Source: Myxococcales bacterium (GTDB taxonomy: Bacteria; Myxococcota_A; Polyangia; Polyangiales; Polyangiaceae). From it: a stretch of 49,486 nt of DNA. A program made the translations under genes and the position numbers. Positions 33,175-43,017 of the stretch are shown here, piece by piece. Position 1 is the first letter of the stretch, and each line of letters starts with the position of its first letter. The notes beneath the pieces are model-generated. The model saw nothing but the letters and a program-made list of their open reading frames with translations. It made no database searches and was not told where the DNA came from. The stretch spans positions 1-49,486 of the forward strand of contig CAHJWM010000036.1 of NCBI GenBank assembly GCA_903642325.1, given 5' to 3'.

Positions 33175-33906
33175 TTAGGCCACTGCGGACGCACGCTGAA
33201 TCTCGTCACTGATGGCGCGGGCTGCGGCGCCTGGGTCGGCGGCATCGCGGATCGGGCGGCCAACGACCAACAGGCTCGAGCCGGCTCGGATTGCCCCTTC
33301 CGGGGTTCCGGTGCGCTTCTGATCGTCGCCGCCTGGGTGGGCCGTGGGCCGTATGCCGGGTGTGACGAGGATCGCGTCGGGGCCCAACGCTGCGCGCAGT
33401 GTCGCCACTTCCGCCGTGGAGCAGACCATGCCTGGGATGCCGTGCCGGTTCGCCAGCCGCGCGAGCCGGAGCGCCTGGTGGCTCGGATCGCCGCTTACCC
33501 CCACCGCCTCGAGGTCCGCCGCATCGAGGGAGGTGAGGACAGTGATCGCTAATAGATCTAGCCCGGTATTTTCCCGGCTCGCGCGTGCAGCGGCGGCAGC
33601 GAGCATCTTAGGCCCGCCGGCCGCGTGCAGCGTCAGGTAGCGAACACCATGCGCGCAGGCAGCCGCCACCGCTCGTTCCACCGTTTCTGGGATATCGTGG
33701 AGCTTGAGATCCAAAAAGACGCAGCAGCCAAGCTCCCGGCCGAGCTCGATGACCCGGGGGCCTTCGCTCACGAACAGCTCGAGGCCCACCTTCAGCACTC
33801 CGACGGAATCAGCAACGCGCCCAGCACCTTGCTGCGCCTCGGCCAATGTCGGGAAATCGAGCGCGTAAGCGAGCTTGGCGCGAGCCGGATGACGCTCGCC
33901 GCTCAC
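33175..33906 (-). CDS. pyrF: Orotidine 5'-phosphate decarboxylase
   Basis: Converts OMP to UMP, the last step of de novo pyrimidine synthesis. TIM-barrel motifs: YALDFPT, VGVLKVGLELF, the catalytic FLDLKLHDIP with Asp66, Lys68 and Asp71, LVTPGIRP and LVVGRPIRDAADP. GTG 33906 forms a GTGA overlap with the stop of the upstream coiled-coil gene, supporting this start and coupling. 243 residues is normal. Confidence 0.94.
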   Translation of the reverse strand: MSGERHPARAKLAYALDFPTLAEAQQGAGRVADSVGVLKVGLELFVSEGPRVIELGRELGCCVFLDLKLHDIPETVERAVAAACAHGVRYLTLHAAGGPKMLAAAAARASRENTGLDLLAITVLTSLDAADLEAVGVSGDPSHQALRLARLANRHGIPGMVCSTAEVATLRAALGPDAILVTPGIRPTAHPGGDDQKRTGTPEGAIRAGSSLLVVGRPIRDAADPGAAARAISDEIQRASAVA

Positions 33907-34667
33907 AGGCACGAGCACAGCGGATCGCCCGCGGGGCACGTGCACGGCTTGGAGCCCGCCGAAGGCTTAGTGGGGGTGGACGCCGGGGCGTGCTGCTGTT
34001 GCACTGCTTTTTGAGCGTTCTGCGTGTCCGTTTTGGCGGCGGCCAGCTCGGCCTCGAGGCGGGCGCGCGTGGCCTCGTCCTTGGCGCTGTCCCTTTGCTT
34101 CTCGAGCTCTTCCTGGTGGTGCTGCGCTTCGTCATACTGGGATTTCAGCGCGGCCAGCTGTTGCTGGGCTTCGGCCTTTTCCCGAGCTGCGATCTCGTCC
34201 TTCACCTGTTGGGCCTTGGCGTTGTTGGTGAGCACCACGAAGATCGCGATGCCGCCCAGGACCAGCACTGCAGAGATGATCCCGAGCACCACTTTCAGCC
34301 GCTTTTTGCCGCGATCGCTGTTCAAAGCGGCCAGCTGTTGCTCATGGGCCTGCTGCGCGGCCAGGGCCTCCATCCGCGAGCGGTGCTCGGTTTCTGCGCG
34401 CGCTTTCTCTAGCTCGCCATGGCGAATGGCTTCCAGGCGCGCGGCCTCTTCCTTGCGGCGCAGCTCTTCGGTCCGGCGCGCCTCTTCTTCAGACCGCAGC
34501 CGGCGCTCTTCCGCGTCGCGAGCGGCCCGCTCCTTGGCCGCCTTCGCCTCGGCTTCTGCGCGGGCGACGGCCTCCTTGTTGGCCTCTTCTTCTTTGATTC
34601 GATTCTCTTCCAGGCTCATCAATTCTTTGAGCGAGAAAAGAACCGAGCTTTCCTTCTGTTCGGCCAT
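33903..34667 (-). CDS. Coiled-coil single-span membrane protein
   Basis: 254 residues. Residues 15-120 are a charged Ala/Glu/Arg/Lys-rich coiled coil; a single membrane helix follows (LKVVLGIISAVLVLGGIAIF, about 125-147), then a second coiled coil (about 155-225) and a short Cys motif CTCPAGDPLCSC at the end. AGGA precedes ATG 34667. The topology suggests a cytoplasmic and a periplasmic rod joined by one membrane helix. No family recognised. It is translationally coupled to pyrF, which is functionally unexplained. Confidence 0.8.
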   Translation of the reverse strand: MAEQKESSVLFSLKELMSLEENRIKEEEANKEAVARAEAEAKAAKERAARDAEERRLRSEEEARRTEELRRKEEAARLEAIRHGELEKARAETEHRSRMEALAAQQAHEQQLAALNSDRGKKRLKVVLGIISAVLVLGGIAIFVVLTNNAKAQQVKDEIAAREKAEAQQQLAALKSQYDEAQHHQEELEKQRDSAKDEATRARLEAELAAAKTDTQNAQKAVQQQHAPASTPTKPSAGSKPCTCPAGDPLCSCL

Positions 34668-35631: not shown

Positions 35632-36654
35632 TCATTGTTTCCAGAAGAACTTCCACGGATTGTGTTTCAGGTCGCGGAGCATTTCCTGAAGATCATCGTA
35701 AAGCGCTTCGTCCATTACCAGCGCCCCCACGGTACCCTTGCCGGCCTTGACGCGGTCGACCAAGCCCTGCGCGTCGCTGGTGATGGTCTTGACCTGACCG
35801 CTTGCGTCGCTCAGATTTTGGGTGATGCGCTGGTAACGCTGAAGTTGATCGGCGCTGGCCAGCGCCTGCGCGAGCTTCTTGGCATCCGCGAGCGTGGCGC
35901 GACCGTCGGTCAGGAGCGGTTCGAGGTTTTGGTTCAAGGTGCCGGTCGAGCTCTCCACGTTGTTGAGAATTCGGGCGATTTGCGGATTGTCTATGTACCG
36001 CTCGCGGGCGGCTTTCAGCGTCGCGCTAGCGTCCCCGGAGAGGGCGTCCAAATTTTGGACGATGTGATCCAACTTGCCCTGGTTGTGCTCGAAAAAATTC
36101 CCGCTCGCATGCAGCGTTCGATGGAGACCATCGAACGTTTCGCTGATCTGCTGCTGGTTGTTGGTGATACCGAGGTACGCCTTGTGCAGTAGCTCGTAGC
36201 TTTCGCTGAGCAGCAGGTCGAGACGGGGTGGGCTAATGCCTTGCACCGTGGCGCCTTCGCCGAGCAGGGGCCGGTCACTGGAGCCCGGCTCGATCGCTAG
36301 AAACATCTCCCCCAGCACGCCCTGGCTGGTCACGAACCAACGCGCGTTGTCGTGAATTGCCGTCTTGTAGCGCCGTTCGACCTTCGCGACGGCGCGGATA
36401 ATTGGCTCCGCCTCGTGGGTTTGCGGGTCCACCATCCCGCCGCGAAATTCTAGCTCGCTCACGCGCCCGACCTTGACGCCTGCGATCCGCACGGGCGCGC
36501 CCGCCTGCAGGCCGCCGGGGTTTTGAAAGCTAACGTACACGGTGAACGTGGGCTGCAAGCTCAAGCCGCCCATTACGACGACGAAACCGGCAAGTAGGCC
36601 AAGGGCGACCAGGATCAGAAATCCTACTTTGACTTCGATCGACCGCTGGCTCAT
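35632..36654 (-). CDS. mlaD: MCE/MlaD-family lipid-transport protein
   Basis: 340 residues. An N-terminal membrane anchor (VGFLILVALGLLAGFVVVMGG, 10-30) precedes one MCE domain at about 38-120 (FTVYVSFQNPGGLQAGAPVRIAG is its hallmark region). About 200 helical residues follow, with regular hydrophobic spacing. MCE proteins form periplasmic hexamer rings that pass phospholipids between membranes; a long helical tail suggests a tunnel or needle like PqiB/LetB-type or mycobacterial Mce proteins. It lies 7 bp after the MlaF-like ATPase gene. ATG 36654 gives the canonical start; 36717 adds an unconserved leader. Confidence 0.9.
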   Translation of the reverse strand: MSQRSIEVKVGFLILVALGLLAGFVVVMGGLSLQPTFTVYVSFQNPGGLQAGAPVRIAGVKVGRVSELEFRGGMVDPQTHEAEPIIRAVAKVERRYKTAIHDNARWFVTSQGVLGEMFLAIEPGSSDRPLLGEGATVQGISPPRLDLLLSESYELLHKAYLGITNNQQQISETFDGLHRTLHASGNFFEHNQGKLDHIVQNLDALSGDASATLKAARERYIDNPQIARILNNVESSTGTLNQNLEPLLTDGRATLADAKKLAQALASADQLQRYQRITQNLSDASGQVKTITSDAQGLVDRVKAGKGTVGALVMDEALYDDLQEMLRDLKHNPWKFFWKQ

Positions 36655-36661
36655 GTGCCGC

Positions 36662-37405
36662 TCACGCTTCCATCGGCCCTTCTGCCCGCCCGTTGATGAA
36701 CTGCTGAACGACGCCATCCACGCTCGCGCGAAAATCGCTGGGATGGCCCACTAACTTCACCCTTCCTTTGTACAGCATGACGATACGGTCTGCGATGCTG
36801 AAGATCGACTTCAGATCATGGGAAACCACGATGCTGGTCACCCCCAAAGTGTCCGCCAGCTCACGGATCAAGCGGTCGACGCGTCGGGCACTGATGGGAT
36901 CCAAGCTGGTGGTCGGCTCGTCGAACAGTACGTAGCGTGGGGATAGCGTGAGTGCCCGCGCAATCGCGACGCGCTTCTTCATGCCGTCGCCGAGCTCGCT
37001 TGGAAAGCGGTCAGCAAAGTCGCGCATTTGGACGCGCTCGAGCAGCCGATGAGCTTCGCTGAGCGCGTCTGCTTCGCCGAGCCCAAGGTGCTTACGCAAC
37101 GGTAGACAGACGTTTTCGGCGCAAGTCATCGAGTCGAAGAGCGTCGAGTGTTGAAAGACCATCGCGCACTTCTTGCGCACTGCGTACATGCGTTGCTCGT
37201 CGAATTGGCTGACTTCTTCGCCATCGAGCCATATTTCGCCAGCGTCTGGTTTCAGCAGACCGACCAGTTGCTTGATCAAAACGCTTTTTCCAACGCCGGA
37301 GGCGCCGATGATGAAAAAGACCTCGCCCGGATTGACGTCGAAGCTGACCGCGCTGAGCACTCGCTTGTCGCCAAACGACTTCGACACGTCGCGGAAAGAG
37401 ATCAT
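36662..37405 (-). CDS. mlaF: Mla-type ABC ATPase 1, degenerate signature loop
   Basis: 247-residue cytoplasmic ATPase of the MlaF family. Walker A GASGVGKS (34-41), Q-loop Gln85, Walker B VLFDEP (Asp162, Glu163), and H-loop His196 (VVSHDL) are intact. The ABC signature reads LGDGM (138-142) instead of LSGGQ/M, losing the conserved Ser. The second ATPase (39894) has the complementary defect. It starts after a lipoprotein gene on the opposite strand, with its own promoter, and is followed by the MCE gene. Confidence 0.93.
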   Translation of the reverse strand: MISFRDVSKSFGDKRVLSAVSFDVNPGEVFFIIGASGVGKSVLIKQLVGLLKPDAGEIWLDGEEVSQFDEQRMYAVRKKCAMVFQHSTLFDSMTCAENVCLPLRKHLGLGEADALSEAHRLLERVQMRDFADRFPSELGDGMKKRVAIARALTLSPRYVLFDEPTTSLDPISARRVDRLIRELADTLGVTSIVVSHDLKSIFSIADRIVMLYKGRVKLVGHPSDFRASVDGVVQQFINGRAEGPMEA

Positions 37406-37415
37406 GGCAAGTCAA

Positions 37416-37445
37416 AGACTAGACGCGACTTTCAAAGCGGTGCAA
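37416..37445 (-). promoter_or_regulatory. Putative promoter of the mlaF-mlaD pair
   Basis: Minus strand: TTGCAC (37445-37440), 18-bp spacer, TAGTCT (37421-37416). The -10 box ends 10 nt before ATG 37405. This would let the ATPase 1-MCE pair be transcribed apart from the upstream permease genes. Confidence 0.5.
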
Positions 37446-37531
37446 TCGCAGTCACGTCCGGCACAGAGCCTGCGAAGCGAAGACCGTGCGCGGTTGACTT
37501 CACGCGCGAAAACGGGGTACGCGGCTGAGAA

Positions 37532-38203
37532 ATGGCTCGTTTTCGCCACATGTCGCGGCGCCGTGCGCGCGCTTGGTTGCTTGGCGTCTCGTGCCTCGTC
37601 GCGAGTGGCTGCGGCCACGCCCCGATCGCACCGGTGATCGCGCCGGAGAGCGACACCGCCCCGGCGCAGTGCGCCAAGGACGAGGTCCGTGAGTACTTTT
37701 GCGACGACTTATTGCCATTATTTTCCGCGCGCCCGGCGCCCGCCCCGTACGACAGCTGTCCGGCCTCGAGTGACATACGAGCCGGCAATTTCCCAGCGGT
37801 CGGCCGAATCGCGGCGTTCGATCTCGAGTACACGGCATACACGCGTCGGCGCGTTCAGCCCGGTCACAGCTGCTGCTACGGCTGGTGCGCCGCCGTGAAG
37901 ACCTCTAACCCAAGCTCGGCGGCGCCCGTTACTTGCGAAAATAGCGCTGGGCTGCGCGAAGGCTTTTGCATGCGCGAGTTGGAGAGCGGAACCTCTGCGC
38001 CGGCGGCGAGCCCGTTCGAGCGCTGCCCGAGCGCGCTCAAGCCGCCAGACGTGGTGGCATTTGCGGCGCCCGCCTCAGCGCGGTTGGACACGGCACAGAC
38101 TGCGCAGCGGCGACGAGAGACGCTCCTGGCCGACTGTTGTTACGGCTGGTGCTCGAGCACACCGGCGGGCACCGTGCTCAAAGCTCAGCCAAAGACCAAG
38201 TAG
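37532..38203 (+). CDS. Cys-rich lipoprotein inserted in the Mla cluster, opposite strand
   Basis: 223 residues. Lipobox LVASGC after a basic N-terminus (start ATG 37532 or 37550). Two related halves each end in CCYGWC (HSCCYGWCAAV and DCCYGWCSST), indicating an internal duplication; other Cys pairs are scattered through. It lies between the two halves of the Mla cluster but on the plus strand, and its stop overlaps the end of the permease 2 gene by 19 bp. Function unknown; a periplasmic or outer-membrane role next to lipid transport is possible. Confidence 0.75.
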   Translation: MARFRHMSRRRARAWLLGVSCLVASGCGHAPIAPVIAPESDTAPAQCAKDEVREYFCDDLLPLFSARPAPAPYDSCPASSDIRAGNFPAVGRIAAFDLEYTAYTRRRVQPGHSCCYGWCAAVKTSNPSSAAPVTCENSAGLREGFCMRELESGTSAPAASPFERCPSALKPPDVVAFAAPASARLDTAQTAQRRRETLLADCCYGWCSSTPAGTVLKAQPKTK

Positions 38204-39009
38204 CCCGCTCCGCTGATCACGAAATTCAACACAATCACGGCTAAGGACGAGCTCACCACCGCCCGCGTGGTCGCCGCCCCTACACCTTCCGAGCCTCCAA
38301 AGGCAGTCAGCCCACAGTAGCCACTGATCACCGGGATTGCGGCGCCGTAAGCCAGGCACTTGCACAGGCCGATCGTCAGATCGCCCGCGCTGACCAGGCT
38401 TACGTTGGCAAACGTGCGAGGGTTCAAGCCGAAAAACGCGTACGCCGTCCACATACCGGTCAGGAACGCGACGCCCGCAGCGATCACGGTCAAGGCTCCG
38501 AAAATGCTCAAGCAAGCCAAGAAGCGCGGTCGGATTAAATAATCGATCGGGTCGGTCGCGCACATGCGTAAGGCATCGACCTGTTCGGTTACGACCATCG
38601 ACCCGATTTCAGCGGCTATCCCCGCACCGACCCGGGTGGCGAGCATCAGCGCGCAAATGCTGGCGGCTAAATCCCGCACTAGGAGTTGCAGAAAGGTCGC
38701 GCCCAACAGCGACAAGTCAGGTACCACGCGCTGCGTCTGCAGCCCGCCCTGGTACACCGAGATCATGCCGATGAAGCCCATAACTACGGCTAAAAATGCG
38801 AGCGAGCGGTTCCCAATCTCGTACATTTGGCACATATAAGCCTGGCGATTGGGGGCGCCGCGCGCTGCATAGTGAAGTGTCAGCCGGAACACTCGGTACA
38901 GGTCAGTGACCTGCTGCAGTTGATCCAAAGCAAAGTGGCCAAGCGCGGCTGCAACGCGTGACCGGGTGCTCGCATTGGGTCTGGGGTGAAGCTCGTTTAG
39001 AATTGTCAT
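38185..39009 (-). CDS. mlaE: MlaE-family permease 2
   Basis: 274-residue inner-membrane permease of the MlaE/YrbE family with about five or six membrane segments. The family core is clear: ATRVGAGIAAEIGSMVVTEQ, then VDALRMCATDPIDYLIRPR. ATG 39009 overlaps the stop of permease 1 (ATGA). A much longer open frame to 39750 is a shadow of permease 1. It is only moderately similar to permease 1, so the two probably form a heterodimer rather than being a recent duplication. Confidence 0.92.
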   Translation of the reverse strand: MTILNELHPRPNASTRSRVAAALGHFALDQLQQVTDLYRVFRLTLHYAARGAPNRQAYMCQMYEIGNRSLAFLAVVMGFIGMISVYQGGLQTQRVVPDLSLLGATFLQLLVRDLAASICALMLATRVGAGIAAEIGSMVVTEQVDALRMCATDPIDYLIRPRFLACLSIFGALTVIAAGVAFLTGMWTAYAFFGLNPRTFANVSLVSAGDLTIGLCKCLAYGAAIPVISGYCGLTAFGGSEGVGAATTRAVVSSSLAVIVLNFVISGAGYLVFG

Positions 39010-39803
39010 AGCAAGGCGAACGACAGCAGGTAGTCGAGCACGAAGATGCCGGCGGCGCTCACGACGACCGTAGTGTTCACCGACCGACCGACGCCCGGCG
39101 CGCCGCCGCGGGTCGACAGCCCGAAGTGACAGCTGGACAGCCCAATGACGATGCCGAAAACGATGCTCTTGATCAGGCCGTGGGCGACGTCGCCGAAGCC
39201 GAGCAGGCCGGTCGTGAGTCCGCGGTAAAAGATGCCCGGCTCGATCCCCAAAAAAGCCCAGCCGGCGTAGGCGGCGCCAAAGAGCGCAAGTGTGTCTGCG
39301 AAAATCGTCGACAAAAACAGCGTGGCCACGATGGCTAGGAAGCGAGGCGTCAGCAAGAAACCCACCGGATCGATAGCCAGGGCGCGGAGCGCGTCGATTT
39401 GTTCCGTAACTGCCATCGTGCCGAGCTCGGCCGTGTTGTTCGCTCCGACCCGCCCGTTGATCATGAGCGCCGTGAGCAGAGGGGCGATCTCGCGCAGCGT
39501 GCCGAAACCTGCGCCCCAGCCGAGCAGGCCATACGCGCCATAATGCTCTACGATCGGCGCCGCTTGAATGACCATGATGCCGCCCGTGAAGAGCGCGGTA
39601 ACGGTCACTATGGGCAGCGACTTGAGGCCCATGCGGTGCAGGCTGCGGAGTAGCTCGCGCTCGTCGAAGTCGCGTTTCAGCACGTGCCGCACGATTTGCC
39701 CGAGGAGCACGCCCAGGCCGCCGAGCAACGACACACTGTCGCCCAGCCACTGACTGAGAGCCGTCAAGGGCGGCGGAGAGCGCGCGCTGGAGTCGGCCGA
39801 CAT
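39006..39803 (-). CDS. mlaE: MlaE-family permease 1
   Basis: 265 residues from ATG 39803 (39851 is an alternative). MlaE/YrbE-type membrane protein: FTGGIMVIQAAPIVEHYGA, GRVGANNTAELGTMAVTEQ, then IDALRALAIDPVGFLLTPR, and several hydrophobic spans. It forms the membrane channel with ATPases on the cytoplasmic side and the MCE ring on the periplasmic side. It is coupled by a 4-bp overlap to permease 2 and follows ATPase 2 by about 90 bp (42 bp with the longer start). Confidence 0.92.
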   Translation of the reverse strand: MSADSSARSPPPLTALSQWLGDSVSLLGGLGVLLGQIVRHVLKRDFDERELLRSLHRMGLKSLPIVTVTALFTGGIMVIQAAPIVEHYGAYGLLGWGAGFGTLREIAPLLTALMINGRVGANNTAELGTMAVTEQIDALRALAIDPVGFLLTPRFLAIVATLFLSTIFADTLALFGAAYAGWAFLGIEPGIFYRGLTTGLLGFGDVAHGLIKSIVFGIVIGLSSCHFGLSTRGGAPGVGRSVNTTVVVSAAGIFVLDYLLSFALL

Positions 39804-39893
39804 GTCAGACGAGTGTACGCCAAGGTCTCGACTCGCAGCCAGGAACCGCATGATTCGCGCACGTTGGGGGCCTCTCGATCGAGGTCTGGCTCG

Positions 39894-40628
39894 TCATAGG
39901 GGGCCGTCCAGCGCACCGTGAACGAACTGATGAACGCGCGGATCGGACGCGTTCTCGAGCTCGTCGGTGCTGCCCTCGAAGATCATGCGGCCCTCCAACA
40001 TCATGCCGACGCGATCGGTGACCGTGAGCAGGCGGTCCAGATCGCTAGAGACCATGATCACGGTCGAGCCGGACGCGCGCTGCTCGGCCCGCAATAAATC
40101 GAAGATCTTCTGACTCGTGACGGGGTCGAGGCCCGCAGATGGTTCGTCGTACAGCACGATCGGCGCGCGCGTCACGGTGGCGCGAGCAACACCGATGCGC
40201 TTCTTTTGACCGCCGCTGAGGCCAGCAGGCAAGCGATCTTGAAAGCCTGGCAGATCGACGCGGGCCAGGCGTTCCGCGACGCGCGCCGCAATTTCTGTCT
40301 CCGACAAATCGAATAGTCGGCGCAGGGGAAATGCGATGTTCTCGGCCACGGTCATGAAATCGAACAGCGCATTGTTTTGAAAAAGCATGCCGATGCCCTT
40401 TCTGAACTCGTTCAACTCCAAGTCGCCCATGGCCAGAACGTTTTGGTCGCCGACCGTGACCTGGCCGCGATCGGGCCGGAGCAAACCGGTGATCGCACGA
40501 AGAATGAGGCTTTTGCCGGACGCTCCCGGCCCGATCATCCCGAATAGACAGCGCTCGGGCACGTACAGCTCGACCTCCGTCAGCACGGCGCGATCGAAGC
40601 TTTTCGAGACGCCGGTGAGGCGAATCAA
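39894..40628 (-). CDS. mlaF: Mla-type ABC ATPase 2, H-loop His replaced by Ser
   Basis: 244 residues. Walker A GPGASGKS (33-40), Q-loop Gln84, canonical signature LSGGQ (137-141) and Walker B VLYDEP (Asp161, Glu162). The switch (H-loop) position is Ser195 (MVSSDLDRL) where the family has His, confirmed from the AGC codon. Loss of the H-loop normally cripples hydrolysis at that subunit's own site. Its start overlaps the stop of the SctJ-like gene (ATGA, 40625-40628). Confidence 0.93.
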   Translation of the reverse strand: MIRLTGVSKSFDRAVLTEVELYVPERCLFGMIGPGASGKSLILRAITGLLRPDRGQVTVGDQNVLAMGDLELNEFRKGIGMLFQNNALFDFMTVAENIAFPLRRLFDLSETEIAARVAERLARVDLPGFQDRLPAGLSGGQKKRIGVARATVTRAPIVLYDEPSAGLDPVTSQKIFDLLRAEQRASGSTVIMVSSDLDRLLTVTDRVGMMLEGRMIFEGSTDELENASDPRVHQFVHGALDGPL

Positions 40629-41440
40629 CGCGCGCCCTGGGCCTCGGCCGCTCGCTGTTCGGCGAGGTTAGTTTCGGCACGCCGGGCGCGGGCCCATACC
40701 CAAAGTAGCGCCGCTAAGAGGCCTAGGTTCACAAGCAGGGCGCTGCCGACGATGCCGCGCAGTGGAAACACCGAACCGCGAGTCACGGTCACGGGGCCGA
40801 AGCGGGATAGCTCGCGCTCCGCCAGACGCCCCGGGCTCGCTACGGGAACCAAGACCACCGAGACCTGAGCGGGCGATAAGCCCGGAACGGCGCCCGCGAC
40901 CAAACGTTGCACATCATAGCTGGCTATGGGCGGTGCGGCGCCCCGATGGCGAAGCAATACCGAGGCTGACGGCTGTAGCGGTGCTTCCTCGGCCGCGAGC
41001 GCATCGGAGACCGGAATGGCCAAGTGAACGCGAACCGACACCACGCCGTCCAGGCTTCGCAACGAGCGCTCGAGCTCACCGGCGGTGCCTGCTACGAATT
41101 TTGCTTGTTCAGAGGCGCGGCTTGGGACCATCGAGCTTTGACCGAAGGTATCGAGCAAGCCAGGGCTAGCGGGCGGCGGTAAGCTCTCGGAGCTCAGCAC
41201 GCCGGCTGCGCTCGAAGCGTCGTCACGGGCCACGCTCACACGCCAGTGCCCTTCGCTGTCCGGATCTCGTTCCTTATCCGCTGCGAGGCCGTTCCTCTCG
41301 AGTGCGACCACGGCGTGATTGGCGTCGCTTTCGTCCAGCCCGACCGCGATCGGGACGTTGCACCCGGTCAGGAAAAGCGCGCCGAACAGTGCGAGCACGG
41401 CCCGTGGCGCGCCCGCTGAATGATCCCCTCGTTCCTTCAT
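40625..41440 (-). CDS. sctJ: SctJ/YscJ-family inner-ring lipoprotein
   Basis: 271 residues. Lipobox FLTGC (Cys27), then the YscJ/FliF ring-building modules: GLDESDANHAVVALERNGL, HWRVSVARDDASSA, GELERSLRSLDGVVSVRVHL and PSASVLLRH, SYDVQRLVAGAVPGLSP. A C-terminal membrane helix (ALLVNLGLLAALLWVWA) precedes a charged tail. This is the layout of SctJ, the type III secretion MS-ring lipoprotein; FliF is twice as long and not a lipoprotein. No other secretion or flagellar gene is in the window. It is translationally coupled to an Mla ATPase, suggesting recruitment to lipid transport. ATG 41440 is chosen for the signal peptide. Confidence 0.85.
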   Translation of the reverse strand: MKERGDHSAGAPRAVLALFGALFLTGCNVPIAVGLDESDANHAVVALERNGLAADKERDPDSEGHWRVSVARDDASSAAGVLSSESLPPPASPGLLDTFGQSSMVPSRASEQAKFVAGTAGELERSLRSLDGVVSVRVHLAIPVSDALAAEEAPLQPSASVLLRHRGAAPPIASYDVQRLVAGAVPGLSPAQVSVVLVPVASPGRLAERELSRFGPVTVTRGSVFPLRGIVGSALLVNLGLLAALLWVWARARRAETNLAEQRAAEAQGAR

Positions 41441-41481
41441 GGTGCTCTCGGCTCGCGCACTTCGCGCGATTGTCCATTGCC

Positions 41482-43017
41482 TCAAAAGTTCGTGTGGGTG
41501 ACGTCGAGCTTCGGATTGCTCGGGAAGCCAAGCCCGCGTACGCCTGCCGCGATGCAGCCCTCGACGCCCCGATTACGTGGGCTCAAGACCACCGTGACGC
41601 CAACGGCGCGGCCGTTTTGCACGGCCGCGCAGATGCTGATCGATGCAGAATCAGGCGCGCCGCAATGCGCAAAGTAGCTTCCGCGGTTCAAAATCGCCGC
41701 GTATTGCCCACCAGTGATGTCCGCTTGGCCGCGTGGCCCTCCGACGCTCATTTCTTCGACGTACGAAGCTTGCGCTGCCTCGCAGCTTTGCCCGCCGCCT
41801 AGGATTGGAAAGGCGCCGCTGTGGCCGACCACGTGTCCGCCGCCGCCTGCCTTGTGCGCTTTCTTGGTGTTCAATCCGGCATCAGTTTCAATGTTCGATT
41901 GCGAGTCCACCTGCACCGCTACCTCGTCATTGCGATTGGCGCGTGCTTTGAGGAACCACAGCCCGGCGATGACCAGCAGCGCGCCAACGCCCAAAACCCC
42001 GATCAGAGCCTTTCCCCGCGTGCTCCGCGACTCCTCCACCACGACCCGCTCGATAGCGGCTTTCTCCGCGCTAACGTCGCGCGATAAGCGAGCATTTTCC
42101 GCGAAGGGCGCAAACTCCTCCCAGTCTTTTATGGCACGCTCGTCTTTACTGAGCGAATCGCGCACGACGTCCACATCGAGGAAGGTGTGCGTGCTGATTT
42201 GCTGCAGCAGCTCGACGGCGCTGAAGGGTCCGTGATCCATGCCGTCCTTGATCACCACGTAACGCGGGCGCGGGTCGCTCTCGAGACGCGCCTTGAGCGT
42301 GGCGAGCTCACTCGTGGCGTCGCTGAGCAGACGCGGCTGCGGTCGAGAGACGACACCGAGCGCGTAAGGGCTGCGCTCGGGCGGAGCGGGCGGCAGCATG
42401 GACATAGACACGTCGACATCGAAGTTCACATCGTGGTCGAGATGAGACGTGTCGGCCGGGGGCGGGGGAGCGGCGCTGGCTAACGGAGCAAACTGATGGA
42501 GCGCCTGCGCCAGCGCGTTCAAGTCATCGGGACGATGGCTGGGGTCAGAGACCAATGCCTTCGCCAACATGCCCTCCACACCATGCGGTAAATTGGCGAT
42601 GACCTCGGTCGGCCGGCGCATGCCGGGGCCGACGCTCAACCCGGTGAGGAGCTCATAAAGCATTGCGCCCAGCGCAAATACGCTGGCCCGCGCGCCGCCC
42701 GGCTCTCCGCTTCGCTCCTCGGGGGCCATACAGGCCTTGTCGCGTGGCAAGACGGGCGCCTTCTGCGCAAGCGCGAGCGAGATCTGGTAAAATCCAAAAT
42801 CGTCTTCGAGCAGGCTCGAGGGGTGCAGATACAACCGATGCCCCGCCCGATGCAGCTCCGCTGCCTGAACGCACAGCGGCACGATCACGCGGACCGCCTG
42901 CCTCAGGTCGAGTGAGCTGCCGCGCACGCGCAACTCCTGGAGTCGCGCGCGGAGCGTGCCGGGGGCGACAGACGCACCGACGGGCAGGGGCGTAACCAAG
43001 TGTTGAGCGCTCGTCAT
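41482..43017 (-). CDS. C-lobe-only pseudokinase with GYF-like, membrane and TonB-C-like domains
   Basis: 511 residues. Residues 35-175 resemble the C-lobe of Ser/Thr kinases (ELHRAGHRLYLHPSSLL, ACMAPEE at 96-101, SVFALGAMLYELLTG), but no N-lobe, P-loop Lys, HRD Asp or DFG Asp is present, so it should not phosphorylate. A GYF_2-like domain follows (about 252-305, DGMDHGPFSAVELL), then a membrane helix (about 337-357) and a periplasmic TonB-C-like domain with conserved Cys (SICAAVQNGRAVGVTVVLSP, GVEGCIAAGVRGLGFP). Gliding-motility proteins of myxobacteria use similar GYF/TonB-C arrangements. It precedes the SctJ-like gene by 41 bp. Confidence 0.8.
   Translation of the reverse strand: MTSAQHLVTPLPVGASVAPGTLRARLQELRVRGSSLDLRQAVRVIVPLCVQAAELHRAGHRLYLHPSSLLEDDFGFYQISLALAQKAPVLPRDKACMAPEERSGEPGGARASVFALGAMLYELLTGLSVGPGMRRPTEVIANLPHGVEGMLAKALVSDPSHRPDDLNALAQALHQFAPLASAAPPPPADTSHLDHDVNFDVDVSMSMLPPAPPERSPYALGVVSRPQPRLLSDATSELATLKARLESDPRPRYVVIKDGMDHGPFSAVELLQQISTHTFLDVDVVRDSLSKDERAIKDWEEFAPFAENARLSRDVSAEKAAIERVVVEESRSTRGKALIGVLGVGALLVIAGLWFLKARANRNDEVAVQVDSQSNIETDAGLNTKKAHKAGGGGHVVGHSGAFPILGGGQSCEAAQASYVEEMSVGGPRGQADITGGQYAAILNRGSYFAHCGAPDSASISICAAVQNGRAVGVTVVLSPRNRGVEGCIAAGVRGLGFPSNPKLDVTHTNF

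Follow-up and report, generated by a model that had tools for sequence, protein, structure and literature searches.

A putative MCE/Mla-type ABC transporter of Myxococcota that pairs two unequal ATPases

The transporter genes and the motifs of the two ATPases

The window, a stretch of 49,486 nucleotides from a Myxococcales bacterium (contig CAHJWM010000036.1; Myxococcales is placed in Myxococcota, which is taken here as the phylum), encodes on its minus strand two MlaF-like ATPases (F1 and F2), two MlaE-family permeases (E1 and E2), and an MCE (MlaD-like) protein, which are proposed to form a single ATP-binding cassette (ABC) transporter of the MCE/Mla type. The three components by which a type VIII ABC transporter is recognized, namely a MlaE-family permease, a MlaF-like ATPase, and a linked MCE protein, are all found among these genes:

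36662-37405, minus strand: F1, MlaF-like ATPase with a degenerate signature and intact Walker A, Walker B, Q-loop, and H-loop
39894-40628, minus strand: F2, MlaF-like ATPase, whose TTG start overlaps the stop codon of the upstream gene for SctJ
39006-39851, minus strand: E1, MlaE-family permease (PF02405, 214.9 bits)
38185-39009, minus strand: E2, second and distinct MlaE-family permease (PF02405, 178.0 bits), whose start overlaps the stop codon of E1
35632-36654, minus strand: MCE (MlaD-like) protein (PF02470, 60.9 bits) with a transmembrane helix, one MCE domain, and a tail predicted to be helical

The best NCBIfam model for both F1 and F2 is MlaF (207.6 and 164.9 bits, respectively, both below the curated cut-off of 441), and MlaF chains are among the best sequence matches in the PDB, ranking first for F2, with an OpuCA chain marginally ahead for F1. 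The two ATPases share 36% identity. The pair of distinct permeases that a sequence-only reading of this DNA had reported nearby corresponds to E1 and E2, both of which match PF02405 with scores well over its cut-off. For the MCE gene, the ATG at 36654 is the most likely start, and the open reading frame extends to 36717. An AlphaFold model of the MCE protein (five sequences) has a mean predicted local distance difference test (pLDDT) score of 58.2 and is usable for the transmembrane helix and the MCE domain only; the tail is modeled as helical, with low confidence past about residue 140, and contains no barrel.

The two ATPases differ at the following motif positions, where counts refer to all F1 and F2 sequences collected:

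Codons 36980-36994, minus strand: F1 signature LGDGM, degenerate, reading ...FPSELGDGMKKR...; not LSGG in 77 of 77 F1
Codon 36818-36820, minus strand: F1 H-loop His196, intact (VVSHD); His in 77 of 77 F1
Codons 40206-40220, minus strand: F2 signature LSGGQ, canonical (LSGGQKKR); Ser-Gly-Gly in 78 of 79 F2
Codon 40044-40046, minus strand: Ser195 at the F2 H-loop position, His lost (MVSSD)
Codon 40143-40145, minus strand: F2 Walker B Glu162, kept here and replaced by Asp in the other F2 clade
40509-40532, minus strand: F2 Walker A GPGASGKS, in which the fourth Gly is replaced by Ala

All but the last two had been pointed out in the sequence-only reading, and the coordinates that it gave for both ATPases, the LGDGM signature and intact His196 of F1, and the LSGGQ signature and Ser195 of F2 are borne out by the nucleotide sequence, with the strand, which it left unstated, being minus in both cases; the reading does not mention the Walker A alanine. 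The Walker A Lys, the Q-loop Gln, and the Walker B Glu are retained in both proteins.

Conservation of the motif changes and of the gene set

A set of 59 related genomes, including that of the window, was searched with each ATPase, where orthologs were called by score and partial copies at contig ends by identity, and matches shorter than 120 residues as well as exact or contained duplicates were dropped before counting. The signature Ser of F1 is replaced by Gly in 41/41 of these genomes and the following Gly by Asp in 40 and Glu in one, while the H-loop His is retained in 41/41. F2 has lost the H-loop His in 42/42 (Ser in 40 and Thr in two), retaining the Ser-Gly-Gly signature in all 42 and the Walker B Glu in 41. 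The control set consists of 60 other MlaF-like proteins, mostly lower-scoring matches of the ATPase searches from the same genomes and with E. coli MlaF included, in which the signature Ser, the Walker B Glu, and the H-loop His are each present in 60/60 and the third signature position is Gly in 58 and Ala in two. Ala at the fourth Walker A glycine occurs in 39 of the 40 readable F2 of the order vs. none of the 60 paralogs. An assembly or reading error as the source of the substitutions is ruled out by the presence of the same changes in independent genomes, and because they recur in related genomes and in 0/60 of the other MlaF-like proteins, they are real rather than the product of chance or sequencing error. 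Within the order, identity to the window copies ranges from 56 to 80% for F1 and from 47 to 74% for F2 (13 aligned representatives each).

A further search covered 377 genomes from the phylum with one profile per ATPase, each made from a 14-row alignment (A1 for F1 and A2 for F2). It gave matches at the thresholds used in 260 and 246 genomes, respectively, the weak end of which includes ordinary paralogs. From these, a distant set of 40 regions was assembled, taken from 37 genomes that belong to other families and classes; matches below 225 bits, such as an F1 fragment at a contig end in locus L287, were left out. A canonical LSGG is found in 0/36 distant F1, where the second signature position is Gly in 25 and Ser in 11 and the third is Asp in 34, Ser in one, and Pro in one, with the H-loop His and Walker B Glu both present in 36/36. 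The 37 distant F2 either lack the His and keep the Glu (15) or keep the His and carry a Glu-to-Asp change (22), and none keeps both. The constant co-occurrence of the LGDG signature with a His-to-Ser change, raised in the sequence-only reading, does not hold in other families and classes, where F1 has LGDG or LSDG and F2 has Asp for Glu with an intact His in 22/37; as the same composite site is broken in either case, this literal failure strengthens the heterodimer reading.

In an ABC dimer, each ATP site is formed by the Walker A and B motifs and the H-loop of one subunit and the signature of the other (PMC7756269). An F1 sequence was read from 77 genomes and an F2 sequence from 79, and composite sites were tabulated for the 76 genomes that have both. 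An ATPase keeping all of its motifs, which had been named in advance as evidence against the heterodimer, was looked for and found in 0/77 F1, and both the His and the Walker B Glu are kept in 0/79 F2. Both halves of the site that combines the F2 core with the signature of F1 are degenerate in 76/76 genomes, the F2-side lesion being His loss in 53, Glu-to-Asp in 22, and both in one, and the site combining the F1 core with the F2 signature is canonical in 75/76, the exception being G244, where F2 reads LAGG. The combination of one canonical and one doubly degenerate site deduced earlier from the window alone is therefore seen in 75/76 and 76/76 genomes, respectively. Since this is how ABC dimers are generally built (a matter of geometry and not a measurement), only a mixed F1:F2 pair, and neither protein alone, could make a consensus site in these 76 genomes.

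A tree built by a quick method from 152 rows, which comprise every distant row and roughly half of the near ones and of the paralogs, places F1 in one group with a branch support of 99 and F2 in one group with 100. Within F2, the His-lost group has a support of 93 and the Glu-to-Asp group 76, so that a single branch sets each lesion apart. F1 and F2 also form one group each in a FastTree run, with low support for F1 (0.43) after rerooting. Whether the two are sisters is left unsettled by the trees, as a quick tree joins F1 with 17 other rows (83) and the 152-row tree leaves the fork open. An origin of F1 and F2 by recent duplication is unsupported, given two separate groups that span distant families and the low identity between them. 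In the simplest history, the order of which is inferred, the F1 signature decayed in a common ancestor and F2 then lost one catalytic residue per branch.

Upstream to downstream on the minus strand, the window carries SctJ, F2, E1, E2, F1, and MCE, with a plus-strand gene inserted between E2 and F1. The two additional genes are as follows:

40625-41485, minus strand: SctJ/YscJ-type ring lipoprotein upstream of F2, a companion that is probably no transporter subunit
37532-38203, plus strand: inserted gene between E2 and F1, of no known family, outside the transporter

Among 112 loci read for gene order, several of which end at contig edges or repeat a genome, the order F2-E1-E2-F1 is found on one strand in 58, and the MCE gene adjoins F1 in 64 of the 83 F1-bearing loci. 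The same order, often followed by MCE, is found in distant families (40 regions), where some loci (L252, L253, and L256) carry a second, weaker MCE match alongside, and F2 and F1 are directly adjacent in one genome (G024, locus L122). In the 59 related genomes, F1 is present in 41 and F2 in 42, with both in 40, neither in 16, F1 only in one (G035), and F2 only in two (G008 and G031). The earlier proposal that the two ATPases always occur together hence stands for 56 genomes and not for these three, whose assemblies are fragmented into 1280, 1500, and 550 contigs; G031 has both E1 and E2 and G035 has an E2 fragment. A search of 24 genomes found the permeases absent from the 16 genomes without F1 and F2, where the best score is 157.8 bits for E1 (vs. 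at least 342 for E1 orthologs) and 110.2 bits for E2 (vs. at least 316 for E2 orthologs). In G003 and G007, which belong to the window's genus, the neighbors, SctJ, the inserted gene, and MCE are in place and the four core genes are gone: F2-E1-E2 is missing on one flank of the inserted gene, and F1 is missing on the opposite flank. In G033, SctJ abuts a homolog of the window gene at 33903-34667, and the inserted gene and MCE are also gone. To judge from these comparisons, F2, E1, E2, and F1 are one unit that is gained and lost together.

A scan of named genomes yielded at least 80 loci, the first 40 of which were read with a crude motif pattern. F2 of this kind is present in at least 14 loci from Myxococcales or "Deltaproteobacteria" metagenome assemblies (L291-L302, L306, and L310), and it may also occur in other phyla. 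In the other 26 of these 40 (e.g., Planctomycetes, Bacteroidota, and Verrucomicrobiota), the ATPase either gets about the same score from the two profiles or is a more remote one, one permease is often found alongside, and the Glu and His are kept where the motif pattern is readable.

Proposed mechanism and alternative explanations

Motifs, gene order, and joint inheritance make it very probable that these genes encode an MCE/Mla-type ABC transporter whose ATPase is an obligate heterodimer, in which one ATP site is of the consensus type and the other is degenerate. F1, F2, E1, E2, and MCE would form one type VIII transporter, in which an F1:F2 ATPase sits on a permease heterodimer of E1 and E2. 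The F1 core (Walker A and B, Q-loop, and His) would combine with the F2 signature into one consensus, hydrolytic site, and the F2 core (lacking the His, or with Glu-to-Asp in relatives) would combine with the LGDG or LSDG signature of F1 into a degenerate site; that an F1:F2 pair should hold one hydrolytic and one impaired site follows from the joining of core and signature of opposite subunits in ABC sites (PMC7756269). The degenerate site should bind ATP and hydrolyze it slowly or never, and because only the consensus site would then be hydrolytic, each cycle would be powered by one site, with the other serving as a hinge. Lipid would travel between the E1:E2 pocket and the periplasm by way of the MCE protein. 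Phospholipid is the default substrate of the family; the physical heterodimer, the chemistry of its sites, the lipid substrate, and the direction of transport are all what we infer from sequence. The broader proposal, which is favored with clearly less confidence, is that of a phylum-wide class of MCE transporters with an actively maintained silent site, where the F1 signature was lost ancestrally and the Glu or the His of F2 was lost per clade, and where the passage of lipid through an asymmetric E1:E2 pocket costs one ATP per cycle.

Several points weigh against this interpretation. The case for an F1:F2 complex is one of sequence comparison, and the distant set was picked among the stronger matches and is thus non-random. 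The operon is not universal, as F2 lies far from F1 in several genomes (e.g., G021, G026, G036, and G010); three genomes have a single ATPase, and in one of them (G008, 80% complete) F2 is present and neither E1 nor E2 was found. Loss of the His with the Glu kept is a less typical lesion than Glu-to-Asp and may be tolerated by some ABC ATPases, and the Walker B Glu kept in the window's F2 leaves scope for slow hydrolysis.

This last point leads to the alternative that F1 and F2 form a true heterodimer in which both sites hydrolyze and the changes tune rates without silencing a site. It is consistent with the Walker B Glu found in 41/42 F2 of the window's clade, and sites with Glu-to-Asp seem to retain a very slow hydrolysis (PMC7756269). 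Nevertheless, the signature and a catalytic residue are altered together at one and the same site in 76/76 genomes, and such changes are tied to degenerate sites (PMC7756269), so that this alternative appears rather improbable, though it is the best placed of those considered.

It is very unlikely that F1 and F2 are instead homodimers of two separate neighboring transporters that tolerate their motif changes. Such a separation would suit the genomes in which F2 is hundreds of kb or a contig away from F1 (G021, G026, G036, and G010), as well as the opposite-strand gene that splits F1-MCE from F2-E1-E2 in the window. Each homodimer would, however, have two defective sites and no consensus site. 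Moreover, E1 and E2 stay together where F2 is remote (L156 and L158 for G021 and G026; about 327 kb from F2 in G034), E1-E2 adjoin F1 in L155, L156, and L158, and no MlaE-like match was found in the fetched stretch around the remote F2 (L119, L120, L121, and L123). The four genes are also absent together, and the lesions hit one composite site in 76/76 genomes.

Scarcely any weight is given to the possibility that one ATPase is regulatory or decaying and stands outside the transporter while the other works as a homodimer. Each lesion taken alone resembles those of impaired ABC proteins, but a consensus site is beyond either protein alone, both the core motifs of F1 and the signature of F2 are canonical in 75/76 genomes, and decay is contradicted by the identities of 56-80% (F1) and 47-74% (F2) within the order. 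Least credible of all is a role of the ATPases in a type III secretion-like machine, which is suggested by the SctJ gene directly upstream of F2, adjoining it in 31 of 90 F2-bearing loci and being the genome's only match to its family besides a FliF-sized one on contig C24, and which is opposed by the lack of a SctJ match beside the operon in all 40 distant regions and by its persistence in G003, G007, and G033 without F1 or F2. For the same two reasons, SctJ is rejected as a gene that defines the function of the transporter.

Two SctV/FlhA-type genes are located on other contigs of the genome (C31 and C57), and five of the six genomes without a FHIPEP (SctV/FlhA) match also lack SctJ, the exception being G008. 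The product of the inserted gene (37532-38203, plus strand) is cysteine-rich and, judged by eye, a putative lipoprotein; the gene is also found in G002, G005, and G006 of the same genus, in G028, and in the transporter-less G003 and G007. In the latter two (L380 and L381), the MCE protein is retained with a long match to that of the window despite the lost ABC core, and it may be working with another permease or be in the process of being lost. The gene upstream of SctJ (41482-43017, minus strand), whose product looks by eye like a kinase-like region with a GYF-like domain after it, holds its position where the transporter is lost, and a relative of its product (L380:6365-8116) has no Pfam family match. 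Further MlaE, MlaF-like, and MCE genes are present in the window's own genome on contigs C44, C14, C35, C7, and C8, with three MlaD matches within one 618-residue frame on C44, and several MCE systems probably coexist there.

Comparison with known systems

If correct, the proposed architecture would be the first example of an MCE/Mla system whose ATPases are heterodimeric in the literature searched (mainly abstracts, with most subscription journals and bioRxiv outside the coverage), which yielded no description of two MlaF-like ATPases paired through complementary defects. The direction of transport is debated for Mla. In a symmetric Mla complex, it is hard to ask whether two hydrolyses per cycle are needed or which half of the permease couples to which ATPase. 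Here, one site would have been silenced naturally, by a different route in each of two groups of relatives, while the halves of the permease can be told apart, and both the stoichiometry and the direction of MCE transport would become testable.

E. coli MlaFEDB is assembled as MlaF2E2D6B2, with one MlaF acting as a homodimer and one MlaE (PMC7790496; PMC7367683), and the signature of its MlaF is LSGGM (PMC7367683); the statement of the sequence-only reading that known Mla systems use a MlaF homodimer agrees with these sources. The window shares with this complex the MlaF-like ATPases, the MlaE-family permease, and the MCE/MlaD protein, and differs from it in having two ATPases with complementary defects, two permeases, and a longer MCE protein; the sequences of F1 and F2 argue against a homodimer with two equal sites. 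It also differs from the proteobacterial Mla pathway, as a scan of seven proteins of the cluster gave no match to MlaB, MlaC, or MlaA. Of these three, MlaC alone was also sought in the whole genome, where its sole match sits on another contig (C10). The minimal MlaEFD system of Veillonella parvula consists of three Mla genes (mlaE, mlaF, and mlaD), and its long MlaD carries an outer-membrane beta-barrel (PMC10665443); the main text of this paper does not contain "Myxococc". An elongated MCE protein without MlaA, MlaB, and MlaC genes is common to both, but the window has four core genes where V. parvula has three Mla genes, and the low-confidence model of its MCE tail has no barrel.

Heterodimeric ABC exporters carry their permease and ATPase domains fused in one chain and have a different permease fold. 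Degenerate sites are usually marked by a changed signature and by Asp in place of the Walker B Glu, with H-loop changes in some, and Glu-to-Asp sites seem still able to hydrolyze ATP, far more slowly than the transport cycle (PMC7756269). As in TAP, TM287/288, and BmrCD, one nucleotide-binding domain has an altered signature and the other has altered catalytic residues at the same composite site (PMC7756269), but the ATPases of the window are separate chains on MlaE permeases, and degenerate-site asymmetry would, if this is true, extend beyond exporters with fused domains. A parallel on the permease side is mycobacterial Mce1, whose MCE proteins have a helical tail, as predicted for that of the window. 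In Mce1, a MceG homodimer is bound to a YrbE1A/YrbE1B heterodimer, and six MCE proteins co-purify (PMC9882608, a preprint). The window likewise has two different MlaE-family permeases, but its ATPases also differ and a single MCE gene is linked to them, so that the permease heterodimer known from Mce1 would have been retained and a heterodimeric engine added.

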